A stretch of DNA of 64,000 nt from Hasllibacter sp. MH4015 (GTDB lineage Bacteria; Pseudomonadota; Alphaproteobacteria; Rhodobacterales; Rhodobacteraceae): assembly GCF_020177575.1 (NCBI RefSeq), contig NZ_JAHTBK010000001.1, positions 2,663,875 to 2,727,874 of the forward strand, given 5' to 3'. The translations under genes were made by a program, and so were the position numbers. The notes beneath the pieces were generated by a model. It did no database searches and was not told where the DNA came from. It saw only the letters and a program-made list of their open reading frames with translations. Positions 4,326-62,595 of the stretch are shown in pieces; within the stretch, counting starts at the first letter, position 1; each line of letters opens with the position of its first letter.

Positions 4326-4970
4326 ATGGGCGAATTGATCCTTGTCCGGCACGGGCAGGCAAATTCCGGGGCGACCACGGAGGAGGCGTACGATCGGCTG
4401 TCAGCGTTGGGGCATCGCCAGGCCGGATGGTTGGGCGATTGGTTTGCCGCGCAGGAAGCGCCCTTCGATCAGGTCTATCGCGGCACGATGCGGCGGCATC
4501 GCGAGACGGCAGAGGGGATCGGGGTTGAGGCGCAGGCGGACGCGAGGCTGAACGAGTTGGATTATTTTGCGCTGGCCCGCGACATGGAGATCACCCACGG
4601 CATGCCGATCCCCGCGACCCAGCAGGATTTCGCGGATCATATCCCCCAGACGCTGAAGGCGTGGCACGCGCAGGAGATTGCGGGCGCGGAGCCCTTCGCG
4701 GCGTTCGAGGCACGGATCGCAACGGTTCTGGCGGAGGCCGCGACGCCGGGCCGGCGGGTTTTGTGTGTGACGAGCGGCGGCGTGATCGCCATGTCGCTGC
4801 GAATTGCGTTGGGGTTGGACATGGACCGGTTGGCGCAGGTTTTGCTGCCGATCTTCAACTCGTCCGTGCACCGGTTTCGGGTGGTCGAGGGCGGTACGTT
4901 CCTGACCAGCTTCAACGCCGTGCCGCATCTGGAGGGGCCGGAGCGTGTTGAGGCGCGGACCTGGGTTTGA
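4326..4970 (+). CDS. Histidine phosphatase family protein (phosphoglycerate mutase-like)
   Basis: A 214-residue cytosolic protein with the branch-1 histidine phosphatase signature LILVRHGQAN near the N-terminus (H9 is the phospho-acceptor), followed by LSALGHRQAGWLGDWF and RGTMRRHRETAEG. The second catalytic histidine usually lies in a late GVI/GH motif; here the region reads VTSGGVIAMSLRIAL, so that histidine is replaced and the exact activity is uncertain. The ATG at 4326 is preceded by AGGAG with an 8-bp spacer, which favours it over the GTG at 4317. It is divergent from the SDR/photolyase pair and stands alone before the leu leader. Confidence 0.8.
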   Translation: MGELILVRHGQANSGATTEEAYDRLSALGHRQAGWLGDWFAAQEAPFDQVYRGTMRRHRETAEGIGVEAQADARLNELDYFALARDMEITHGMPIPATQQDFADHIPQTLKAWHAQEIAGAEPFAAFEARIATVLAEAATPGRRVLCVTSGGVIAMSLRIALGLDMDRLAQVLLPIFNSSVHRFRVVEGGTFLTSFNAVPHLEGPERVEARTWV

Positions 4971-5190
4971 GGCGCGCGTCGTCGGGCCGCGGTGCGGCGA
5001 TCTAACGTGGATTTCGGCCACTTTATGCCCGCCAAGTCGCCCTTCGCCTCATTGAAACATCAAGACCAGCCAATTCGCCGTGCCGGGGGGGCGGCCCGAC
5101 GATGCGCGGCGGCTTCGCCTTGGTCCCGCGCAGGGTGGCAACGCCGGGTAGGGGCTTTTCATTTACGTTTTCCGAGGTATGGTGCCTCCT

Positions 5191-53156: not shown

Positions 53157-55094
53157 GTGCCCAACGACATGACCCCTGCCCTGCTGCCCAACGCGCATAT
53201 CGACGCTGCCAAATACGAAGAGATGTACGCCGCCTCCATCAACGATCCCGAGGCGTTCTGGGGGGAGCACGGCAAGCGCATCGACTGGATCAAGCCCTAC
53301 ACGAAGGTCAAGGACACCTCCTTCGCCCATGACGACGTGCATGTGCGGTGGTTCGAGGACGGCACGCTGAACGTCAGCGCTAATTGCATCGACCGCCACC
53401 TGGAGACACGCGGCGACCAGACCGCGATCCTGTTCGAGCCCGATGAGCCGAGCGACGAGGCGCAGCACATCACCTACAAGCAACTCCACGAGGAAGTCTG
53501 CAAATTCGCCAATGTCCTGAAGGGCCTGGGCGTGGAGCGTGGCGACCGCGTCGTGCTCTACATGCCGATGATCCCCGAGGCGGCCTATGCGATGCTGGCC
53601 TGCACGCGGATCGGCGCGGTGCATTCCATCGTGTTCGCGGGCTTCTCCCCCGACGCGCTGGCGGCCCGGATCAACGGGTGCGACGCGAAGCTGGTCGTCA
53701 CCACCGATGGCGCGCCGCGCGGCGGCCGGGTGACGGAGCTGAAGGATAACGTCAACAAGGCGCTTCTGCACAACCAGATCAAGACGCAATGCCTGGTGGT
53801 GAAGCGCACGGGCGGTCAGGTCGCCTGGGTCGAGAACCGCGATCACTGGTATCACGAGCTGGCCGAAGGTGTGTCCACCGAGTGCGCGCCCGAGGAGATG
53901 AATGCCGAAGACCCGCTGTTCATCCTTTATACGTCCGGGTCCACCGGTATGCCCAAGGGCGTGGTGCATTCGACGGGCGGCTACCTCGTCTATGCGTCGA
54001 TGACCCATGAATACACGTTCGATTACCATGACGGGGACGTCTTCTGGTGTACCGCGGATGTGGGCTGGGTCACGGGCCACAGCTATATCGTCTATGGCCC
54101 GCTGGCCAATGGCGGCACGACGCTGATGTTCGAGGGCGTGCCGACCTATCCCGATGCCGGGCGGTTCTGGCAGGTTTGCGAAAAGCACAAGGTCAACCAG
54201 TTCTACACCGCGCCCACCGCCATTCGCGCGCTGATGGGCAAGGGGACGAGCTTCGTCGAGAAATACGACCTGTCATCCCTGAAGTTGCTGGGCACCGTGG
54301 GGGAGAACATCAACCCCGAGGCGTGGAACTGGTACAACGAGAATGTCGGCAAGGGCCGCTGCCCCATCGTCGACACGTGGTGGCAGACGGAGACGGGCGG
54401 TCACATGATGACGCCCCTGCCCGGCGCCCATGAATTGAAGCCCGGCTCGGCGCAGAAGCCGTTCTTCGGCGTCAAGCCGCTGGTGCTGGACCCGACAAGC
54501 GCCGAGGTGATCGAGGGCAATGACGTCGAGGGCGTGCTGGTCATCGCCGACAGCTGGCCCGGCCAGATGCGCACCGTATGGGGCGATCACGAGCGGTTCG
54601 TGAAGACCTATTTCAGCGATTACAAAGGCTACTACTTCTCCGGCGACGGCTGCCGCCGCGACGCTGACGGGGAATACTGGATCACGGGCCGCGTGGATGA
54701 CGTCATCAACGTGTCGGGCCACCGCATGGGCACGCCCGAAATCGAGTCCGCGCTTGTCGCCCATGAGACGGTCAGCGAAGCCGCCGTGGTGGGCTATCCC
54801 CACCCCGTGAAGGGCCAGGGCATCTATTGCTACGTCACCTTGATGAGCGACGAGACGCCATCGGACGAGTTGAAGGCCACGCTACAGGCCTGGGTTCGGC
54901 AGGAGATCGGACCGATCGCGAAGCCGGACGTCATTCAATGGGCGCCGGGCCTGCCCAAGACACGCTCGGGCAAGATCATGCGCCGCATCCTGCGCAAGAT
55001 CGCCGAGAACGATTACGGATCATTGGGGGATACCTCCACGCTCGCCGACCCGTCGGTGGTGGATGATCTGATTGCGAACCGCGCCGACGTCTGA
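53157..55094 (+). CDS. acs: Acetyl-CoA synthetase
   Basis: Converts acetate, ATP and CoA to acetyl-CoA. The 645 residues carry the AMP-binding loop [40 protein letters not shown] and the C-terminal [13 protein letters not shown] with catalytic Lys606, the residue that is inactivated by acetylation in other bacteria. I chose the GTG at 53157 because AGGAGA stands 6 bp before it; the ATG at 53169 is too far from that site. Downstream genes encode a two-subunit acetate/short-chain acid symporter, so uptake and activation are linked. Confidence 0.96.
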
Positions 55095-55111
55095 GGCGGC
55101 GCGCACGAAGT

Positions 55112-55142
55112 CCTGCCGTCCGAACACCGACTGGGCGGCAGG
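55112..55142 (+). promoter_or_regulatory. Hairpin between acs and the symporter genes
   Basis: CCTGCCG (55112-55118) pairs with CGGCAGG (55136-55142), a 7-bp stem with a 17-nt loop starting 18 bp after the acs stop. No T-run follows, so it may set message stability or partial readthrough to the symporter genes rather than stop transcription. Confidence 0.4.
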
Positions 55143-55201
55143 GGTAAACCGAGGGGACCGGAGGGGCCCCAGAGGCAAAAACCTTGAAGGGAGAACATCG
55201 A

Positions 55202-55453
55202 ATGTCGGAAAACAACAATGCGTATTGGTCTGCGAACATGCGCCTGATCACCATCTGCTTGGTGATCTGGGCGCTTGCGTCGTACGGCTTCGCTATCCTG
55301 CTCCGGCCGCTGATCAGCGGTATCGAAGTGGGCGGCACCGATCTGGGCTTCTGGTTTGCCCAGCAGGGTTCCATTCTCGTGTTCTTGTTCCTGATCTTCT
55401 TCTACGCCTGGCGTATGAACAAGATCGACAAAGAACATGGCGTGGACGAATAG
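55202..55453 (+). CDS. DUF4212 small subunit of sodium/substrate symporter
   Basis: An 83-residue protein with two membrane helices (LITICLVIWALASYGFAILL and FAQQGSILVFLFLIFFYAWR) ending in RMNKIDKEHGVDE, the standard DUF4212 ending. These small proteins pair with the VC_2705-type symporter encoded directly downstream, and are required partners in that family. AGGGAG precedes the ATG at 55202; an in-frame TTG at 55184 is a weaker option. It lies 16 bp before the symporter gene. Confidence 0.92.
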   Translation: MSENNNAYWSANMRLITICLVIWALASYGFAILLRPLISGIEVGGTDLGFWFAQQGSILVFLFLIFFYAWRMNKIDKEHGVDE

Positions 55454-55468
55454 GGAGCGCCGAGGGAC

Positions 55469-57211
55469 ATGGATCAAACAACACTCAATTTTATCGTCGT
55501 GGGGCTGTCTTTCGCGCTCTACTTCGGTATCGCGATCTGGGCCCGCGCTGGGTCCACATCTGAATTCTACGCGGCCGGCCGGGGTGTGAACCCGGTGGTC
55601 AACGGGATGGCCACCGCTGCTGACTGGATGTCGGCCGCGTCGTTCATCTCGATGGCGGGCCTCATCGCGTTCACCGGCTACAACAACTCGCTCTTCTTGA
55701 TGGGTTGGACGGGCGGCTACGTGCTGATGGCGATGCTGCTGGCACCCTACCTGCGCAAGTTTGGCAAGTTCACCGTGCCGGAATTCGTGGGCGATCGCTA
55801 TTACTCCAACACGGCGCGCGTTGTGGCCGTGGTCTGCCTCATCATCATCTCGACCACCTACGTGATCGGCCAGATGACGGGTGCGGGCGTTGCGTTCTCG
55901 CGCTTCCTGGAAGTGAACTCCACCATGGGTCTGATCATCGCGTCCTGCGTTGTGGCGGTCTATGCGGTTCTGGGCGGCATGAAGGGCATCACCTACACCC
56001 AGGTGGCGCAGTATTGCGTTCTGATCGTGGCCTACACGATCCCGGCCATCTTCATCTCGCTGCAACTGACCGGCAACCCGATCCCGGGCCTGGGCCTGTT
56101 CAGCACGATGAACGAAGGTCTGCCGGGTGGCGTTGAGGCGGGCACACCGCTTCTGGTGACGCTGGACGGTCTGCTGACCGATCTGGGCTTCAACGAGTAC
56201 ACCGCAACCACGAACCCGTGGCTGATGGCGCTTTACACCCTGTCGCTGATGATCGGTACCGCGGGCCTGCCCCACGTGATCATCCGCTTCTTCACGGTGC
56301 CCAAAGTGTCTGACGCCCGCTGGTCCGCCGGTTGGGCGCTGGTGTTCATCGCGCTTCTGTACCTGACGGCACCTGCCGTGGGCGCAATGGCCCGCCTGAA
56401 CATCATCACCACCATGTGGCCGGAAGGCACGCAGGCCGAAGCGGTTGCCGTGGACGATCTGCCCGACTGGTTCCGTACGTGGGAGGTCACTGGCCTTCTG
56501 GGTGTCGAGGATCTGAACGGCGACGGTCGTATCCAGTACACCGCCGGTGAGGACAACGAACTGACGACCTTCAACCGTGACATCCTGGTTCTTGCGAACC
56601 CGGAAATCGCCAACCTGCCGCCCTGGGTGATCGCATTGATCGCAGCGGGTGGTATCGCGGCGGCCCTGTCCACGGCGGCGGGTCTGTTGCTGGCGATCTC
56701 GTCGGCGATCAGTCACGACCTCATCAAATCGGTGATCAACCCGAGCATCTCGGAAAAGGGCGAGCTTACGGCGGCCCGGATCTCGATGATCGTGGCGATT
56801 GTCGGCGCAACGCTATTGGCGCTGAACCCGCCGGGCTTTGCGGCGCAGACGGTGGCACTGGCCTTTGGCCTCGCGGCAGCCTCGCTGTTCCCGACGCTGA
56901 TGATGGGGATCTTCTCCAAGCGGATGAACGCGGCCGGTGCAATTGCCGGTATGCTGGCAGGCATCATCTCGACCTGCCTGTACCTGTTCACCTACCTGGG
57001 CTGGTTCTTCATCCCCGGCACGGCCATGCTTGACAGCTCCCAGTATATCCTGGGTATCCCGCCGACCCATTTCGGGCCGATCGGTGCGCTGTTCAACTTC
57101 GGTGTGGCGTTCCTGGTGTCCCGTGCAACCGCGGCCCCGCCGCAGCACATCGTGGACCTCGTCGAATCCGTCCGTATCCCCCGGGGTGCAGGCGCGGCAA
57201 CCGACCACTAA
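55469..57211 (+). CDS. Sodium:solute symporter, VC_2705 / ActP-like (acetate or short-chain acid)
   Basis: A 580-residue SSS-family transporter with about thirteen hydrophobic segments. It has family sequence SEFYAAGRGVNPVVNGMATA, AADWMSAASFISMAGL and GTAGLPHVIIRFFTVP. A hydrophilic loop between membrane segments contains EDLNGDGRIQYTAGEDNE, an EF-hand/dockerin-like calcium-loop pattern (D348, N350, D352). Placement next to acs supports acetate, propionate or related acid uptake. A strong terminator follows the stop. Confidence 0.93.
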   Translation: MDQTTLNFIVVGLSFALYFGIAIWARAGSTSEFYAAGRGVNPVVNGMATAADWMSAASFISMAGLIAFTGYNNSLFLMGWTGGYVLMAMLLAPYLRKFGKFTVPEFVGDRYYSNTARVVAVVCLIIISTTYVIGQMTGAGVAFSRFLEVNSTMGLIIASCVVAVYAVLGGMKGITYTQVAQYCVLIVAYTIPAIFISLQLTGNPIPGLGLFSTMNEGLPGGVEAGTPLLVTLDGLLTDLGFNEYTATTNPWLMALYTLSLMIGTAGLPHVIIRFFTVPKVSDARWSAGWALVFIALLYLTAPAVGAMARLNIITTMWPEGTQAEAVAVDDLPDWFRTWEVTGLLGVEDLNGDGRIQYTAGEDNELTTFNRDILVLANPEIANLPPWVIALIAAGGIAAALSTAAGLLLAISSAISHDLIKSVINPSISEKGELTAARISMIVAIVGATLLALNPPGFAAQTVALAFGLAAASLFPTLMMGIFSKRMNAAGAIAGMLAGIISTCLYLFTYLGWFFIPGTAMLDSSQYILGIPPTHFGPIGALFNFGVAFLVSRATAAPPQHIVDLVESVRIPRGAGAATDH

Positions 57212-57257
57212 GCGATCTTGGCAGGCCCTGCGACCTTGCGGGGCCTGTCGGATACAG

Positions 57258-57290
57258 GGCGCATCCCGACACGTTCGGGGTGCGCCTTTT
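57258..57290 (+). terminator. Intrinsic terminator after the symporter gene
   Basis: A 12-bp stem with one G-T wobble (57258-57269 with 57275-57286), a 5-nt loop and TTTT directly after. It is the clearest rho-independent terminator in the window. A second stem, CAGGCCC/GGGCCTG (57222-57228, 57241-57247), lies just before it. It ends the acs-symporter message 24 bp before the next gene, so the DUF294 gene depends on readthrough or its own promoter. Confidence 0.85.
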
Positions 57291-57313
57291 CATAAAGTGA
57301 CCGACATCCGATC

Positions 57314-59137
57314 ATGCCCCACACACCCATAGATCAGCTTCTGGCCCGCACGCATCCTTACGATGCCCTGTCCGACGAGGACCGCGTGGCGCTGGCGAAA
57401 GTGGCGGGCGTGCAGGAGGTCGAGGCCGGTCACCTGATCTATCGCCTCGGCGCACCGGTGACGGCCCTGTGCCTGATCGAGCGGGGTCAGGTGAATATCA
57501 CCGACGAACACGCAGAGGTCCTGTCGATCCTGGGGCCCGGAAATTCCTTCGGAGAACGCGGTTTGATGCGCGACGGGATCGCCCCCGTGAACGCGATCAC
57601 GACCGAGGCGAGCCGGATCATCACGATCCCCGCGGATGTCTTCCACTCGCTGATCAAGAACAACCCGACCGCGCGACGGTTCTTCGACCGCACGCGGCCC
57701 GCGGCGACCAAGCAGCAGGACATCACCACCATGGCGGTGGCCGACCTGATGACGCCCGCGCCGCTGACCTGCCGCCCCGACACGCCGTTGATCGAAGCTG
57801 CGGGCCAGATGCGGGACCGCCACGTGTCGTGTATCATCGCGACCGAGGCCGAGGACGGCCCGGTGCGCGGCATCCTGACAACCGGCGACATCACCGCACG
57901 CGCCGTGGCGGAGGGGTTGGACAACCACGTTCCTGTTGGCGACATCATGACGCCCGATCCCCTGACGCTGCCGCCCAGCGCCCTCGTGGCCGATGTCCTG
58001 CACACGATGGTGGAGCGCGGCATCACCCATATGCCGGTGGTGGAGGCCGGGCGGCTGGCCGGTATCCTGACCCAGACCGACCTGACACGGTTCCAGGCCA
58101 CGTCGTCCGCTGCCCTGATCCGCGACATCGTAACCGCCCCCGATGCGGACGCCATCGCCAAGGTCACGGCAAAGATCCCCGAATTGCTGGTCCAATTGGT
58201 CGGAGCCCAGAACCCACACCAGGTCGTCACCCGCCTGATTACGGATATTGGCGATGCGGCCACGCGACGGCTTCTGACGCTGGCCGAGGCGGAGCTTGGC
58301 CCGCCGCCCTGCCCCTATCTGTGGCTTGCCTGCGGCAGTCAGGGTCGGCAGGAGCAGACCGGCGTCAGCGATCAGGACAATTGCCTCATCCTCTCAGACG
58401 AGATGGCGGAGGGCGACGACGCCTATTTCGAGGCGCTGGCACGGTTTGTCAGCGACGGGCTGGACAAGGCCGGTTATTTCTTCTGCCCCGGCGACATGAT
58501 GGCGACGAACCAGAAATGGCGCCAACCCCTGCGCGTCTGGCGCGACTATTTCCAAGGCTGGATCGACCGCCCCGACCCCGAGGCGCAGATGCTTGCCTCC
58601 GTCATGTTCGATTTGCGGGCGATCGGCGGGGCCGCTGACCTGTTCGACGGCCTGCAGGCGCGGGTGCTGGAGGCGGCGGCAGGCAATTCGATCTTCGTGG
58701 CGCATATGGTGGCCAATTCGCTCAAGCATCAACCGCCGTTGGGGTTGTTCCGGGGCTTTGCCATGGCACGGTCGGGGGAACACAAGAACACCATCGACAT
58801 GAAACATGCAGGCGTCGTGCCCATCGTCGATCTGGGGCGCATCTACGCGCTGACCGGCAAGCTGACGATTGCCAATACCCGCGCGCGGATCGAGGCGGGG
58901 ATGGAGGCGGGCGTCGTGTCGGGCTCCGGCGGGAGGGACCTGCTGGACGCGTACGATTTGATCGCGGAGATGCGGCTGGAGGACCAGGCCGCCCAGATCA
59001 AGCGTGGGGAGAAGCCGGACAATTTCATGGCCCCCGCCAGCCTGTCCGATTTCGAGCGGAGCCACCTGCGCGACGCCTTCGTCGTTGTGAAAACCATGCA
59101 ATCGGCCGCCCAATCGGGCCGCGGATACCTGAGCTGA
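57314..59137 (+). CDS. cNMP-binding / tandem CBS / DUF294 nucleotidyltransferase-like protein
   Basis: A 607-residue soluble regulator. Residues 10-130 form a cyclic-nucleotide-binding domain (ILGPGNSFGERGLMRDG). Two CBS domains follow (about 142-200, VADLMTPAPLTCRPDTPLIE; about 205-262, VGDIMTPDPLTLPPS). A GlnD-like nucleotidyltransferase core has GSQGRQEQTGVSDQDN (G341, S342, R345, E347, D353, D355), and a DUF294 C-terminal helical domain ends the protein. It could modify a partner protein in response to nucleotide or energy status. Family members usually sit next to DnaQ-like exonuclease and acs/symporter genes, as here. Target unknown. Confidence 0.9.
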   Translation: MPHTPIDQLLARTHPYDALSDEDRVALAKVAGVQEVEAGHLIYRLGAPVTALCLIERGQVNITDEHAEVLSILGPGNSFGERGLMRDGIAPVNAITTEASRIITIPADVFHSLIKNNPTARRFFDRTRPAATKQQDITTMAVADLMTPAPLTCRPDTPLIEAAGQMRDRHVSCIIATEAEDGPVRGILTTGDITARAVAEGLDNHVPVGDIMTPDPLTLPPSALVADVLHTMVERGITHMPVVEAGRLAGILTQTDLTRFQATSSAALIRDIVTAPDADAIAKVTAKIPELLVQLVGAQNPHQVVTRLITDIGDAATRRLLTLAEAELGPPPCPYLWLACGSQGRQEQTGVSDQDNCLILSDEMAEGDDAYFEALARFVSDGLDKAGYFFCPGDMMATNQKWRQPLRVWRDYFQGWIDRPDPEAQMLASVMFDLRAIGGAADLFDGLQARVLEAAAGNSIFVAHMVANSLKHQPPLGLFRGFAMARSGEHKNTIDMKHAGVVPIVDLGRIYALTGKLTIANTRARIEAGMEAGVVSGSGGRDLLDAYDLIAEMRLEDQAAQIKRGEKPDNFMAPASLSDFERSHLRDAFVVVKTMQSAAQSGRGYLS

Positions 59138-59147
59138 GGAAGACGAG

Positions 59148-59678
59148 ATGTTCTGGACCTTAATCGCCGCGATCTTCGGGGGCCTGGCCGGGGCCGGGAT
59201 CGGGATGGGGCTGCGCAAGCTGTCGCGGGGGCGGCTGAATGCCGGGATCGTGCCGGTCTGCGCGGGCATCATGATGGTCATCACCACGGTCTCCACGGAA
59301 TACAGCTGGTACAACAGCTCGCTGGCGCAACTGCCCGCCGACACGGTCGTCGTGACGGAGCGGGAGCAGCAGGCCTGGTACCAGCCCTGGACGTTCGTAC
59401 GGCCCTGGGTGCGGGGCTTCATCGCCTTTTCGCCATCCGAAACCGTGGAAGTGGCGGAAGACAGCGGCGTTTACGCCGCGCAGATGCAGGTGCGCGAACG
59501 CTGGCAGCCCGCGATGGTGCGCCCGGTTCTGGTCGATTGCCCCAGGGAGCTGCGCTTCGACGTCACCCCCGAGACAGAGTTTAACGAGGCCGGTCAACCG
59601 ATCGGCGCGACCGCCGTGGGCGAAGGCGAGGACGATCCGATCATCACATCGGTCTGTACCGCGTCGCCGCCCGGCTGA
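59148..59678 (+). CDS. Hypothetical membrane protein
   Basis: A 176-residue protein with two N-terminal membrane helices (FWTLIAAIFGGLAGAGIGMG; LNAGIVPVCAGIMMVITTV) and a hydrophilic C-terminal part of about 110 residues with two cysteines (VDCPRELRF, TSVCTASPPG). No known domain is recognised. It starts 10 bp after the DUF294 gene and ends 66 bp before the exonuclease gene, so it belongs to the same block. The likely orientation puts the C-terminal part in the periplasm. Confidence 0.75.
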   Translation: MFWTLIAAIFGGLAGAGIGMGLRKLSRGRLNAGIVPVCAGIMMVITTVSTEYSWYNSSLAQLPADTVVVTEREQQAWYQPWTFVRPWVRGFIAFSPSETVEVAEDSGVYAAQMQVRERWQPAMVRPVLVDCPRELRFDVTPETEFNEAGQPIGATAVGEGEDDPIITSVCTASPPG

Positions 59679-59744
59679 CACCCTGCCCCGGCGCTGCGCG
59701 ACCGCCGGGACGGGCAAGATGGGGCAAGGAGGAGGCCCCGATCC

Positions 59745-61712
59745 ATGTTCCAGCATCTATCCCTGCGTCTGCGCATATTCCTGTTCTTCGCCTTCCTAGC
59801 CGTCGCCACGTCCGGCCTTGCCATCGCGGGGCTGATCCTGGGCTACGTGCGGTTGGGAGAGGATCACGCCCTGTCGGCCTTTGTCATCGCCGGTCTGATA
59901 GGTGTCTTCGCCATTTTCGGGCTGACCGCCTGGGTCTGGACGATGTTCGACGAGAACGTCGCCAAACCCGTGGAACGGCTGGCCGCCGAGATGCGCGCGC
60001 GGGTCCATGCGGGGGTGGACCGGGACCTTGATGAGCGTGCGGCGCAGCATCTGGGGGATCTGGGGCCCGCGGCGGCAGCGGTGACGCAGAACCTAAACGA
60101 GACGCGCAATGCGATGGCCATGGCCGTGGCGCGCGAGACCGCCCGCATGACGACGGAAAAGGCGCGGCTGGAGGCCTTGTTGAGTGAGATGCCGGATGGC
60201 GTGCTGTTCTGCACACCCGACCACAAACTCGCCCTCTATAACGGACAGGCGCGCGACGTGCTTGGCGCGTCCGACGCCCTCGGCCTTGGCCGTCCGCTGT
60301 CGGCGCTCCTGCGCATGGCCCCGGTAGAGATGGCCTATGACCGCCTGGCGGAGGAGGCTGAGGATGTCGGGACGGATATCCTGGTCACAACGCGTGCAGG
60401 CGCGCGGCTGCTTGAGGCGCGGATGCGGCTTTTGCGGCTGGAAGGGCAGGAAACGACGCGACCGGGCTATGTGCTGGCGCTGCGCGATGTCTCGGGCGAT
60501 CTGCCGGTCCTGGCGGAACGCGCGCATCTGCTGGAGGAGGCGATTGCCAATCTGAAAGAGGCGGGGCGTGAGGACCTGGCCCGCGACATCAGTGAGCGCA
60601 AGGCCGCGACCGACACGAAATGGTGGCCGATGGAGGCATTGCGGGCCAGTGACCTGGGTGCGGCCCTGTCGGCGCGATTGACACGGAAGGGCGTGGCGCT
60701 GGACTGCGATCTGGGAACGCAACGTTTGCGCTGTGACGGCTTTGCGATCACCCGCTTGCTGGAGCGCCTTGCGCTGGATTGGACCAACGCCGGGGCCGCC
60801 GATCTTTGCCTTACCTTCGCCCGTGAGACGCCGGATGCCGCCGTGCTGAGCCTGGAGGCCACGGGCGATGCGCCGGATGGGTGGGAGGTCTGGCTGACCA
60901 CACCCCTTTCGCCCGGCCTGTCGGGCTTCGCCGGACGCGATGTCCTGATCTGCCACGGCGCGACCCTGACAATGGAACCGGCGGGCGACGGGCGCGCGGC
61001 CTTCCGCTTTGGTCTGCCGATGGCCGAGCCGGGCGTGCGCGGACCCATGCGAGAGGTCCTGTACGATTTCGACCTGCTCCACACCCCGCTTTCCGCGAGC
61101 CTTGCCGAAGCGCCGCTTTCCGCGCTCAGCTACGTGGTTTTCGACACCGAGACCACCGGGCTGAACCCGGCGGTGGACGAGGTTTGCCAGATCGCCGCCG
61201 TGCGCATCGTCAACGGCAAGATGCGCGCGGAGGAGCGGTTCGACATGTTGGTCAATCCAGGCCGTCCGATCCCTGCCGCCTCCACCGCTGTGCATCACAT
61301 CACCGACGACATGGTGGCCGATGCGGTGCCCGTGGGCGAGGCGCTGGCCCGGTTCCACACCTTTGCCGAAGGGGCCGTCCTCGTGGCGCATAACGCGCCG
61401 TTCGACATGGCTTTCCTGCGGCGGCGCGAGGCGGAGATCGGGGCGCGGTTCGATCAGCCGATCCTCGACACGGTCCTGTGTTCCGCGATTCTGTTCGGGC
61501 AATCGGCGGACCACACGCTCGATGCGCTGTGCGACCGGCTGGGTGTCACCATCCCCGAGGCCGAACGCCACACGGCATTGGGGGACGCGATCGGCACGGC
61601 GGATGCCATGGCGCGCATGATCCCGATGCTCAAGGCGGTCGAGATCGGGTCCCTGTCCACCCTGATCCGCACATTCGATCAGCACAAACGCCTGATCGAG
61701 CACCTCAATTAG
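59745..61712 (+). CDS. Membrane PAS protein with degenerate kinase region fused to DEDDh (DnaQ-like) exonuclease
   Basis: A 655-residue fusion. Two membrane helices (FFAFLAVATSGLAIAGLILG; FVIAGLIGVFAIFGLTAWVW) are followed by a HAMP-like linker, a PAS domain (LLSEMPDGVLFCTPDHKLAL, about 145-250) and a region shaped like a kinase ATPase domain but without H-, N- or G-boxes. Residues 462-630 are a DEDDh exonuclease: FDTETTGLN (D467, E469), LVAHNAPFDMAFL, HTALGDAIGTADAM. The exonuclease motifs are intact. AAGGAGGAGG precedes the ATG. The exonuclease may act on RNA or DNA at the membrane in response to a PAS ligand; this is inference. Confidence 0.9.
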   Translation: MFQHLSLRLRIFLFFAFLAVATSGLAIAGLILGYVRLGEDHALSAFVIAGLIGVFAIFGLTAWVWTMFDENVAKPVERLAAEMRARVHAGVDRDLDERAAQHLGDLGPAAAAVTQNLNETRNAMAMAVARETARMTTEKARLEALLSEMPDGVLFCTPDHKLALYNGQARDVLGASDALGLGRPLSALLRMAPVEMAYDRLAEEAEDVGTDILVTTRAGARLLEARMRLLRLEGQETTRPGYVLALRDVSGDLPVLAERAHLLEEAIANLKEAGREDLARDISERKAATDTKWWPMEALRASDLGAALSARLTRKGVALDCDLGTQRLRCDGFAITRLLERLALDWTNAGAADLCLTFARETPDAAVLSLEATGDAPDGWEVWLTTPLSPGLSGFAGRDVLICHGATLTMEPAGDGRAAFRFGLPMAEPGVRGPMREVLYDFDLLHTPLSASLAEAPLSALSYVVFDTETTGLNPAVDEVCQIAAVRIVNGKMRAEERFDMLVNPGRPIPAASTAVHHITDDMVADAVPVGEALARFHTFAEGAVLVAHNAPFDMAFLRRREAEIGARFDQPILDTVLCSAILFGQSADHTLDALCDRLGVTIPEAERHTALGDAIGTADAMARMIPMLKAVEIGSLSTLIRTFDQHKRLIEHLN

Positions 61713-61905: not shown

Positions 61906-62595
61906 ATGGCGCGTACCCCCCTCTACAAGGCCGCAGAAACCCAGATGATCGCCCGGATCAAGGAAGGCGATTGGGAGGTCGGTCGCCGTCTGCCCAACGA
62001 ATTCCAACTGGCCGATGAATTCGGGGTCAGCCAGGGCACGATGCGGCGCGCGCTGATCAGCCTTGAGGATATGGGATACCTCAACCGAAAGCCCGGACGC
62101 GGCACGCTTGTGGCAACCAATATGCCCACGAAGCCGAGCGCGCCCGCGCCGGTGCCACGCCTCTTGACGGAAGACGGCACGCCCCTGGTGCTTGATCCCT
62201 TCCGGGCACGCACCGACACACGCGGCGCGACCCCCGGGGAGGCGGATCTGTTCGGGTCCAACCGTCTTGCCACGATGGAACGGACGCTGAAGTGCAATGG
62301 CACGCGGGCCGCGGTGGACGAGGTTGTGGTGCCCGAGGCCTTGATCCCGGCCTTGGACGAGGATGCCCCCGCAGACCTCGCGTCGCTCTTGCAGGCCCAT
62401 GGCCAGGAGGCCGCGCGGATCACCGCCACCGCCCGCGCAGAGATGACGGACATGGCGCTCTCCGTTGCGCTTTCGACCGACCGGCACACGCCGCTTCTGT
62501 GCGTCACCAGCGTGGCGCTGGACGGCAGCGGTGCAGCAATCGCCAGACAGGTGTTGCGCATAGCCATGCGCGGCGTCACCCTCGCCCACGAATAG
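61906..62595 (+). CDS. GntR-family transcriptional regulator (HutC type)
   Basis: A 229-residue regulator with an N-terminal GntR winged helix (LYKAAETQMIARIKEGDWEV; LPNEFQLADEFGVSQGTMRR; GYLNRKPGRGTLVATN) and a C-terminal UTRA-like domain that binds a small molecule. The effector is not recognisable. It stands alone between the exonuclease hairpin and the tRNA-Met, and its target genes are not evident; the nearest operons are the acs block and the aldolase/RidA pair. Confidence 0.88.
   Translation: MARTPLYKAAETQMIARIKEGDWEVGRRLPNEFQLADEFGVSQGTMRRALISLEDMGYLNRKPGRGTLVATNMPTKPSAPAPVPRLLTEDGTPLVLDPFRARTDTRGATPGEADLFGSNRLATMERTLKCNGTRAAVDEVVVPEALIPALDEDAPADLASLLQAHGQEAARITATARAEMTDMALSVALSTDRHTPLLCVTSVALDGSGAAIARQVLRIAMRGVTLAHE

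Follow-up and report, generated by a model that had tools for sequence, protein, structure and literature searches.

We analysed a window of 64,000 nucleotides from Hasllibacter sp. MH4015 (contig NZ_JAHTBK010000001.1), in which the genes for an acetate--CoA ligase (acs), a DUF4212 protein and a VC_2705-family sodium/solute symporter are followed on the same strand by three further genes. These encode a DUF294 nucleotidyltransferase with cNMP-binding and CBS domains, a two-helix membrane protein, and a protein in which predicted membrane helices and a PAS domain precede a DEDDh exonuclease. Profile and structure comparisons indicate that the middle of the exonuclease protein (residues ~252–426) is a degenerate histidine kinase DHp-CA core, which the first-pass annotation of this DNA had missed and which is new here. 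We tentatively favour the reading that the last three genes form a regulatory module on a sodium-coupled monocarboxylate symporter, in which DUF294 would add a nucleotide and the sensor-gated exonuclease would remove it, thereby tuning carboxylate uptake. The anatomy of this module is well supported, unlike its chemistry.

Conservation of the DUF294–exonuclease pair

When 148 genomes from Rhodobacterales, the order of the source organism, were sampled, DUF294 was found in 89 of them, and the PAS-exonuclease protein (E below 1e-90) in the same 89; 15 further genomes with weaker matches only (1e-31 to 1e-33) were excluded as containing other exonucleases. The exonuclease gene was located downstream of DUF294, on the same strand and within 6 kb, in 89/89 genomes, and DUF4212 upstream of the pair in 87. 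In the window, one small gene separates the two. The two genomes without DUF4212 (G006 and G114) and the named locus L026 have an ActP-type symporter beside the pair instead. The conserved neighbourhood that the first-pass annotation had proposed was thus borne out within the order, and is looser outside it, as described below. In a genome of the window's own genus (G007), there was no match to DUF294, DUF4212 or the PAS-exonuclease at the thresholds used, and the block seems absent from this close relative.

A second set consisted of 80 named loci, including Rhodobacteraceae, Pusillimonas and Neopusillimonas (which we take to be Alcaligenaceae) and Ciceribacter (presumably Rhizobiaceae). Since this set shares genomes with the 89 of the order, and some genomes were fetched twice, the order, named and receiver counts given here are not independent. 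The residues D467, E469, D554, H609 and D614 of the exonuclease protein, which we take to be the DEDDh catalytic set, were invariant in 80/80 rows of the alignment (A1; the window and all named loci except L049, 79 of 80), in 89/89 order relatives and in 80/80 named loci. Judged by these residues the active site is intact and nuclease activity is predicted, in line with the earlier suggestion of a membrane sensor carrying an exonuclease. The DUF294 signature (GSQGRQEQ...DQDN) was kept in 88/88 order relatives and in 75/78 named ones, the three misses being short fragments.

DUF294 proteins are widespread: 144 of the 398 genomes sampled from the phylum carry one. The long exonuclease protein was matched in 56 of the 398 at 1e-40, six of these only via the exonuclease domain (9.5e-41 to 1.4e-47). 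From genomes without this long form we hand-picked 20 high-ranking DUF294 matches, which are therefore no random draw. In 20/20 of these short-form loci, a DEDDh exonuclease match starts 84–226 bases past the DUF294 stop on the same strand, indicating a wide distribution of the pair, with the sensor front as an elaboration. Within the stretch fetched, 14/20 had a match to the window's symporter and 11/20 had DUF4212. The motifs were less uniform in this set: the narrow DUF294 pattern was found in 1/20 and a wider one in 15/20, with five unmatched; Glu replaced Asp at Exo II in 10/20, and two failed to align at Exo III. Longer open frames (444–862 aa, stop to stop) contain three of these 20 exonuclease matches.

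Degenerate kinase core and adjacent response regulator

Pfam assigned a PAS and an RNase_T domain to the exonuclease protein (E values in Table 1) and left the region between them without assignment. A profile of this middle region from 12 relatives matched ZraS (1.4e-9), 9m08 (3.4e-9), 3a0r (9.5e-9), 4i5s (5.7e-8) and DivL (1.6e-7) in the Protein Data Bank (PDB); weak matches to designed ankyrins (E 0.0098 and above) in the same search were taken as chance. HisKA was matched weakly, in 6/19 members and with 0.0056 as the best value. The AlphaFold2 model of the exonuclease protein (80-row alignment; predicted local distance difference test score (pLDDT) 85.6, predicted template modelling score (pTM) 0.70) had WalK as its top Foldseek match (E 1.1e-13), with a global TM-score that was low (0.19), as for multi-domain chains. 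The hydrophobic sequence of the N-terminal helices suggests that they insert into the membrane.

The kinase motifs were located by alignment to ZraS in 117 full-core relatives, which include genomes counted in two sets. The position of the phospho-His was occupied by Asp in 73 and Glu in 35 (D/E in 108/117) and by His in none, the Asp of the G1 box (DxGxG) was replaced by Trp in 117/117, and no conserved N-box Asn was found. Since the phospho-His and the ATP-site motifs are lost, the core is, by its motifs, a pseudokinase. The Arg at H+3 was kept in 113/117. In the window's protein, erosion has reduced the H-box stretch to a short helical hairpin; the phospho-His is absent, and the docking motif (the H+3 Arg region), which falls in this stretch, appears to be lost.

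Full-core relatives encode a receiver domain in an open frame of ~130 aa that immediately precedes the exonuclease gene; two examples matched PF00072 at 4.3e-27 and 3.7e-29. Among 103 aligned receivers, including those of genomes fetched twice, the phospho-Asp was present in 102, the Thr/Ser in 99 and the Lys in 100. In the order set, the receiver accompanied 24/24 full cores, 1/10 eroded cores (L207, with a degenerate receiver) and 0/55 exonuclease proteins with no core. Outside the order set it was found in 26 of the 27 full-core relatives checked, out of 37 full-length ones, and in the named set, which overlaps the order set, beside 63/66 full and 0/14 eroded cores. Beside the exonuclease gene of the window there is no receiver gene. 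Relocation of the receiver to another site in the same genome was considered and rejected on the sequence matches: of the 22 receiver matches, the best was 44 percent identical to that of L016 (Defluviimonas), and none lies inside the window.

On a tree of 115 rows built without the core region, the core-less forms were a single group (support 99), and the eroded cores were those of the window's clade, an Alcaligenaceae pair and L207. The receiver is absent in the first two of these and in the core-less group. Because distant relatives nearly all have both parts, we infer that the changes in receiver and core are losses. L207 (G131), with a receiver score of just 46 bits and a shortened kinase core, is a possible intermediate of joint receiver/core decay.

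A related architecture has been described in Caulobacter crescentus. There, the pseudokinase DivL binds DivK~P via a docking surface, and the R553A substitution, three residues after Y550, weakens binding (PMC4211667). DivL and the relatives of the window's protein both combine a PAS sensor with a kinase core that has no phospho-His. Because the relatives retain the H+3 Arg, as in DivL, and have a single-domain response regulator gene adjacent, docking of the regulator on the pseudokinase is likely in the full-core relatives by this analogy. The output of DivL is control of another kinase, whereas that of the present family would be a nuclease domain, and the window copy, unlike DivL/DivK, has neither the regulator gene nor the H-box region. 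In the open-licence literature, most subscription journals being outside its scope, we found no description of a PAS-pseudokinase-exonuclease fusion or its receiver. A chain of receiver, pseudokinase and exonuclease, if true, would be a two-component output not found in the literature searched, and its natural stages are available: full core with receiver, eroded core without receiver, and no core.

Proposed mechanism and alternative explanations

In the mechanism that we favour, a target would receive a nucleotide from DUF294, with its cNMP and CBS sensor domains, and lose it again to the DEDDh exonuclease by the opposite phosphodiester chemistry, the balance of writer and eraser setting symporter activity or monocarboxylate use. 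The exonuclease would be the output of a membrane sensor made of two membrane helices, PAS and kinase core, since it is the part with conserved catalytic residues. The core, without kinase chemistry, would serve as a signal-transmitting, probably dimeric, scaffold, on which the upstream single-domain response regulator of full-core relatives would probably dock as DivK~P does on DivL; the lineage of the window would have no such input. If true, the two partners would respectively form and break a phosphodiester bond, which would fit the published single-mutant phenotypes and suggests a way for bacteria to tune carbon uptake. An extended version seems to us speculative and unlikely: a two-component branch, spread over Alphaproteobacteria and other classes, would end in a nuclease, with a phosphorylated regulator docking on the PAS pseudokinase to gate the exonuclease that erases the DUF294 mark on carboxylate uptake. 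The window would then represent a derived form that has lost regulator and docking site and relies on PAS alone for gating.

The published DUF294-exonuclease pair is PP_0354/PP_0353 of Pseudomonas putida, reported as a single operon in which an RNase_T exonuclease gene comes after a CBS-domain gene (PMC9927547). In the window, likewise, the cNMP-CBS-DUF294 gene stands ahead of the DEDDh exonuclease gene in the same orientation. PP_0353 is described only as an RNase_T protein, whereas the exonuclease of the window is fused to membrane, PAS and kinase parts; by analogy with the short-form loci, we assume that PP_0353 is without these. The pair belongs to the CrbR/ErdR regulon, MxtR/ErdR being CrbS/CrbR (PMC8402216, PMC5715377), and adjoins actP and yjcH in some Pseudomonas (PMC9927547). 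In P. putida it lies near glcB and away from actP, and ErdR binds the promoters of both pp_0354 and the actP-I operon (PMC9927547, PMC8402216). No mechanism was assigned to such a pair in the open-licence literature that we found.

The first-pass annotation had linked the last three genes to control of acetate metabolism and had drawn an analogy with CrbS/CrbR, in which a symporter-fused kinase regulates acs. The analogy fails, since no SSS-fused sensor kinase (the SSS-STAC kinase of CrbS/MxtR type) was found in the window's genome, in which the symporter of the window alone matched SSF (PF00474) at E <= 1e-5. Together with the Pseudomonas data, this weakens the acetate claim. Deletion of pp_0354 or pp_0353 left growth of P. 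putida on 20 mM acetate unaffected (PMC9927547), and in P. fluorescens, removal of the DUF294 gene pflu5625 made a negligible difference on acetate (PMC5715377). The authors of the P. putida study allow for a role of the pair when acetate is low, as actP-I and pp_0353 had similar transposon fitness at 5 mM (PMC9927547).

Opposition of the exonuclease to DUF294 is favoured by the strict gene order, both within Rhodobacterales and at the short-form loci, and by the catalytic residues that both enzymes keep. GlnD and GlnE modify PII and glutamine synthetase. DUF294 is, like them, a member of the polymerase-beta superfamily, and DUF294_C has been grouped with a GlnD/GlnE-type domain (PMC3710099), which also speaks for opposition; the DUF294 proteins studied here carry cNMP and CBS domains, unlike GlnD/GlnE. 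A further argument comes from P. putida on pyruvate, where loss of pp_0353 delays growth and loss of pp_0354 has no effect, loss of ActP-I impairing growth (PMC9927547). This is the pattern expected of the eraser of an inhibitory mark.

Several observations weigh against the favoured mechanism. We know of no DEDDh enzyme that strips nucleotides from proteins, and to our knowledge no activity is on record for the DUF294 protein or its exonuclease partner. Among the best named families of the exonuclease domain are DNA polymerase III domains, whose substrate is nucleic acid. The phenotype in P. putida is a delay, in one condition and one species, and the silent DUF294 deletion, equally expected if DUF294 does nothing there, is weak evidence. 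Linkage is incomplete: the named locus L069 is without DUF294 (among the 80 named loci, of which L073 is incomplete), and 6/20 of the picked DUF294 loci had no match to the window's symporter within the ~11 kb retrieved. The sensor-exonuclease is less tightly linked to DUF294 outside the order, as DUF294 was found at ten of 13 long-form loci (not at L115, L119 and L123) and on the same strand at four (L113, L117, L118 and L125). The core itself is dispensable, since the whole of it is missing in 55/89 order relatives. The limit between eroded and full cores, a linker of 203 residues, was chosen after the data had been seen, and some full-core rows are only just above it (206–212). Receiver and core would have been lost together in three groups, and with three supported pairs the independent-pairs sign test gave a median p of 0.5, which is not significant. 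Full cores without a receiver occur in L077, L080, L082 and L106, and the eroded core of L207 is accompanied by a receiver, if a degenerate one.

The record behind locus L069, a metagenome-assembled genome labelled Exiguobacterium profundum, bears a Rhodobacteraceae-like exonuclease gene and a receiver without DUF294, and is probably mislabelled.

The alternatives differ in what the exonuclease would act on. It could be a membrane-bound enzyme that degrades specific mRNAs (acs, symporter, glyoxylate-shunt) on a PAS signal, with DUF294 adding 3' nucleotides to RNA or being unrelated. This explanation, which is close to the RNA-decay idea of the first-pass annotation and to a speculation on mRNA degradation by the P. 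putida authors (PMC9927547), agrees with the intact active site and with the RNase T structures found among the Foldseek matches. PolC and DnaQ exonucleases were matched as well, and such DNA proofreading domains match equally well or better; they share the fold and catalytic residues of the window's domain, which is fused to a membrane sensor and not to a polymerase or helicase. Since, moreover, the exonuclease mutant grows unchanged on 20 mM acetate (PMC9927547), we regard mRNA degradation as rather doubtful. Shared control within a carbon-use regulon, with each gene acting independently of the others, appears somewhat less probable still. It would account for the promoters bound by ErdR in P. 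putida despite the distance of the pair from actP, and for the long exonuclease often not being in a DUF294 operon outside the order, but the same-strand arrangement of 89/89 order and 20/20 short-form loci is stricter than a shared regulon requires.

The polymerase-beta superfamily also includes messenger synthases. DUF294 might make a linear oligonucleotide or dinucleotide messenger that the exonuclease degrades, the cNMP and CBS domains tying synthesis to energy state. The linkage and the conserved catalytic residues fit this as they fit a protein mark, and so does membership of DUF294 in the superfamily, but no such messenger is known and the GlnD/GlnE-type grouping of DUF294_C is more suggestive of protein targets (PMC3710099); we consider a messenger improbable. 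The last alternative concerns the core: if the middle region were an active kinase phosphorylating another protein, the exonuclease would be a passenger. In spite of the clear homology to kinase cores, this is hardly credible, as all 117 full-core relatives have neither the phospho-His nor the G1 Asp, the N-box Asn is not conserved, and the exonuclease residues stay invariant where the core has been lost.

Locus layout, two-helix protein and neighbouring genes

Gene calls and Pfam/NCBIfam matches confirmed the gene content, coordinates and single-strand arrangement of the first-pass annotation (Table 1). The DUF4212 and symporter models, TIGR03647 and TIGR03648, are paired in NCBIfam.

Table 1. 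Features of the block and its surroundings, in positions of the window.
Feature	Position	Strand	Evidence or remark
acs, acetate--CoA ligase	53157..55094	+	TIGR02188 1012.7 bits, NF001208; GTG start
DUF4212, symporter small subunit	55184..55453	+	PF13937 1.2e-32; TIGR03647
VC_2705-family sodium/solute symporter	55469..57211	+	TIGR03648, 798 bits
Terminator-like element: two strong hairpins, then TTTT	57220..57290	+	sequence and fold z -6.2
cNMP-binding / two CBS / DUF294 nucleotidyltransferase / DUF294_C protein	57314..59137	+	PF00027, PF00571 (2 stretches), PF03445 8.9e-47, PF10335; signature GSQGRQEQ...DQDN
Two-helix membrane protein with C-terminal soluble domain	59148..59678	+	AlphaFold2 model; 71-row alignment
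Membrane PAS - degenerate histidine kinase - DEDDh exonuclease protein, 655 aa	59745..61712	+	Pfam, alignment, AlphaFold2
Two N-terminal helices, predicted transmembrane (residues ~7-66)	59763..59942	+	AlphaFold2 helices 7-37 and 42-89
PAS domain (residues 147-250)	60183..60494	+	PF08448 7.2e-06
Degenerate kinase core (residues 252-426), made of a short helical hairpin (252-293; no H-box) and a CA-like domain (297-426; no N/G boxes)	60498..61022	+	
DEDDh exonuclease domain (residues 464-620), D467 E469 D554 H609 D614	61134..61604	+	PF00929 5.3e-35
GntR-UTRA regulator	61906..62595	+	downstream in window's clade only; module membership unproven

A terminator after the symporter gene, as had been proposed earlier, is plausible by structure. 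The spacer 57212–57313 folds with a dG of -55.6 (z -6.2), which was equalled by 0/200 shuffles; a simple terminator consensus scan did not have this spacer among its listed sites. As a general feature of the block the terminator was rejected, since a comparable signal was found in just 14/67 loci (spacer 30–400 bases) by a crude hairpin-plus-T criterion, to which 9/345 random control windows were positive.

The two-helix protein had likewise been assigned to no known family, and no Pfam or NCBIfam family was found above cut-off. It has 176 aa, and the AlphaFold2 model (pLDDT 94.4) places helices at residues 2–25 and 34–60, ahead of a beta-rich C-terminal domain. Despite the quality of the model, the fold had no PDB match at E <= 0.001. 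E51, W54, P80, R118, C131 and C170 were invariant in the 71 aligned rows (A4; 71 of 73, with L042 and L049 excluded), and the two invariant Cys are compatible with a periplasmic disulphide. At L228, a relative of this protein (46 bits) is located after the exonuclease gene.

A defence island was considered and rejected: PADLOC matched generic domains only, with no defence-protein match beyond generic DEDDh, cNMP or receiver domains.

The gap between acs and DUF4212 is 89 bases in the window. In L016, the corresponding gap contains a putative adenylate kinase gene (4433–5110, identified by eye), relatives of which were found in the gap in 51 of the 54 named loci with both flanks seen and were absent from it in L040, L043 and L079. 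Acs produces AMP, so that a putative adenylate kinase beside acs may be a functional link. A relative of the GntR-UTRA regulator lies 3' of the exonuclease gene in 12 named loci, which are the same Rhodobacteraceae clade that has no receiver gene.

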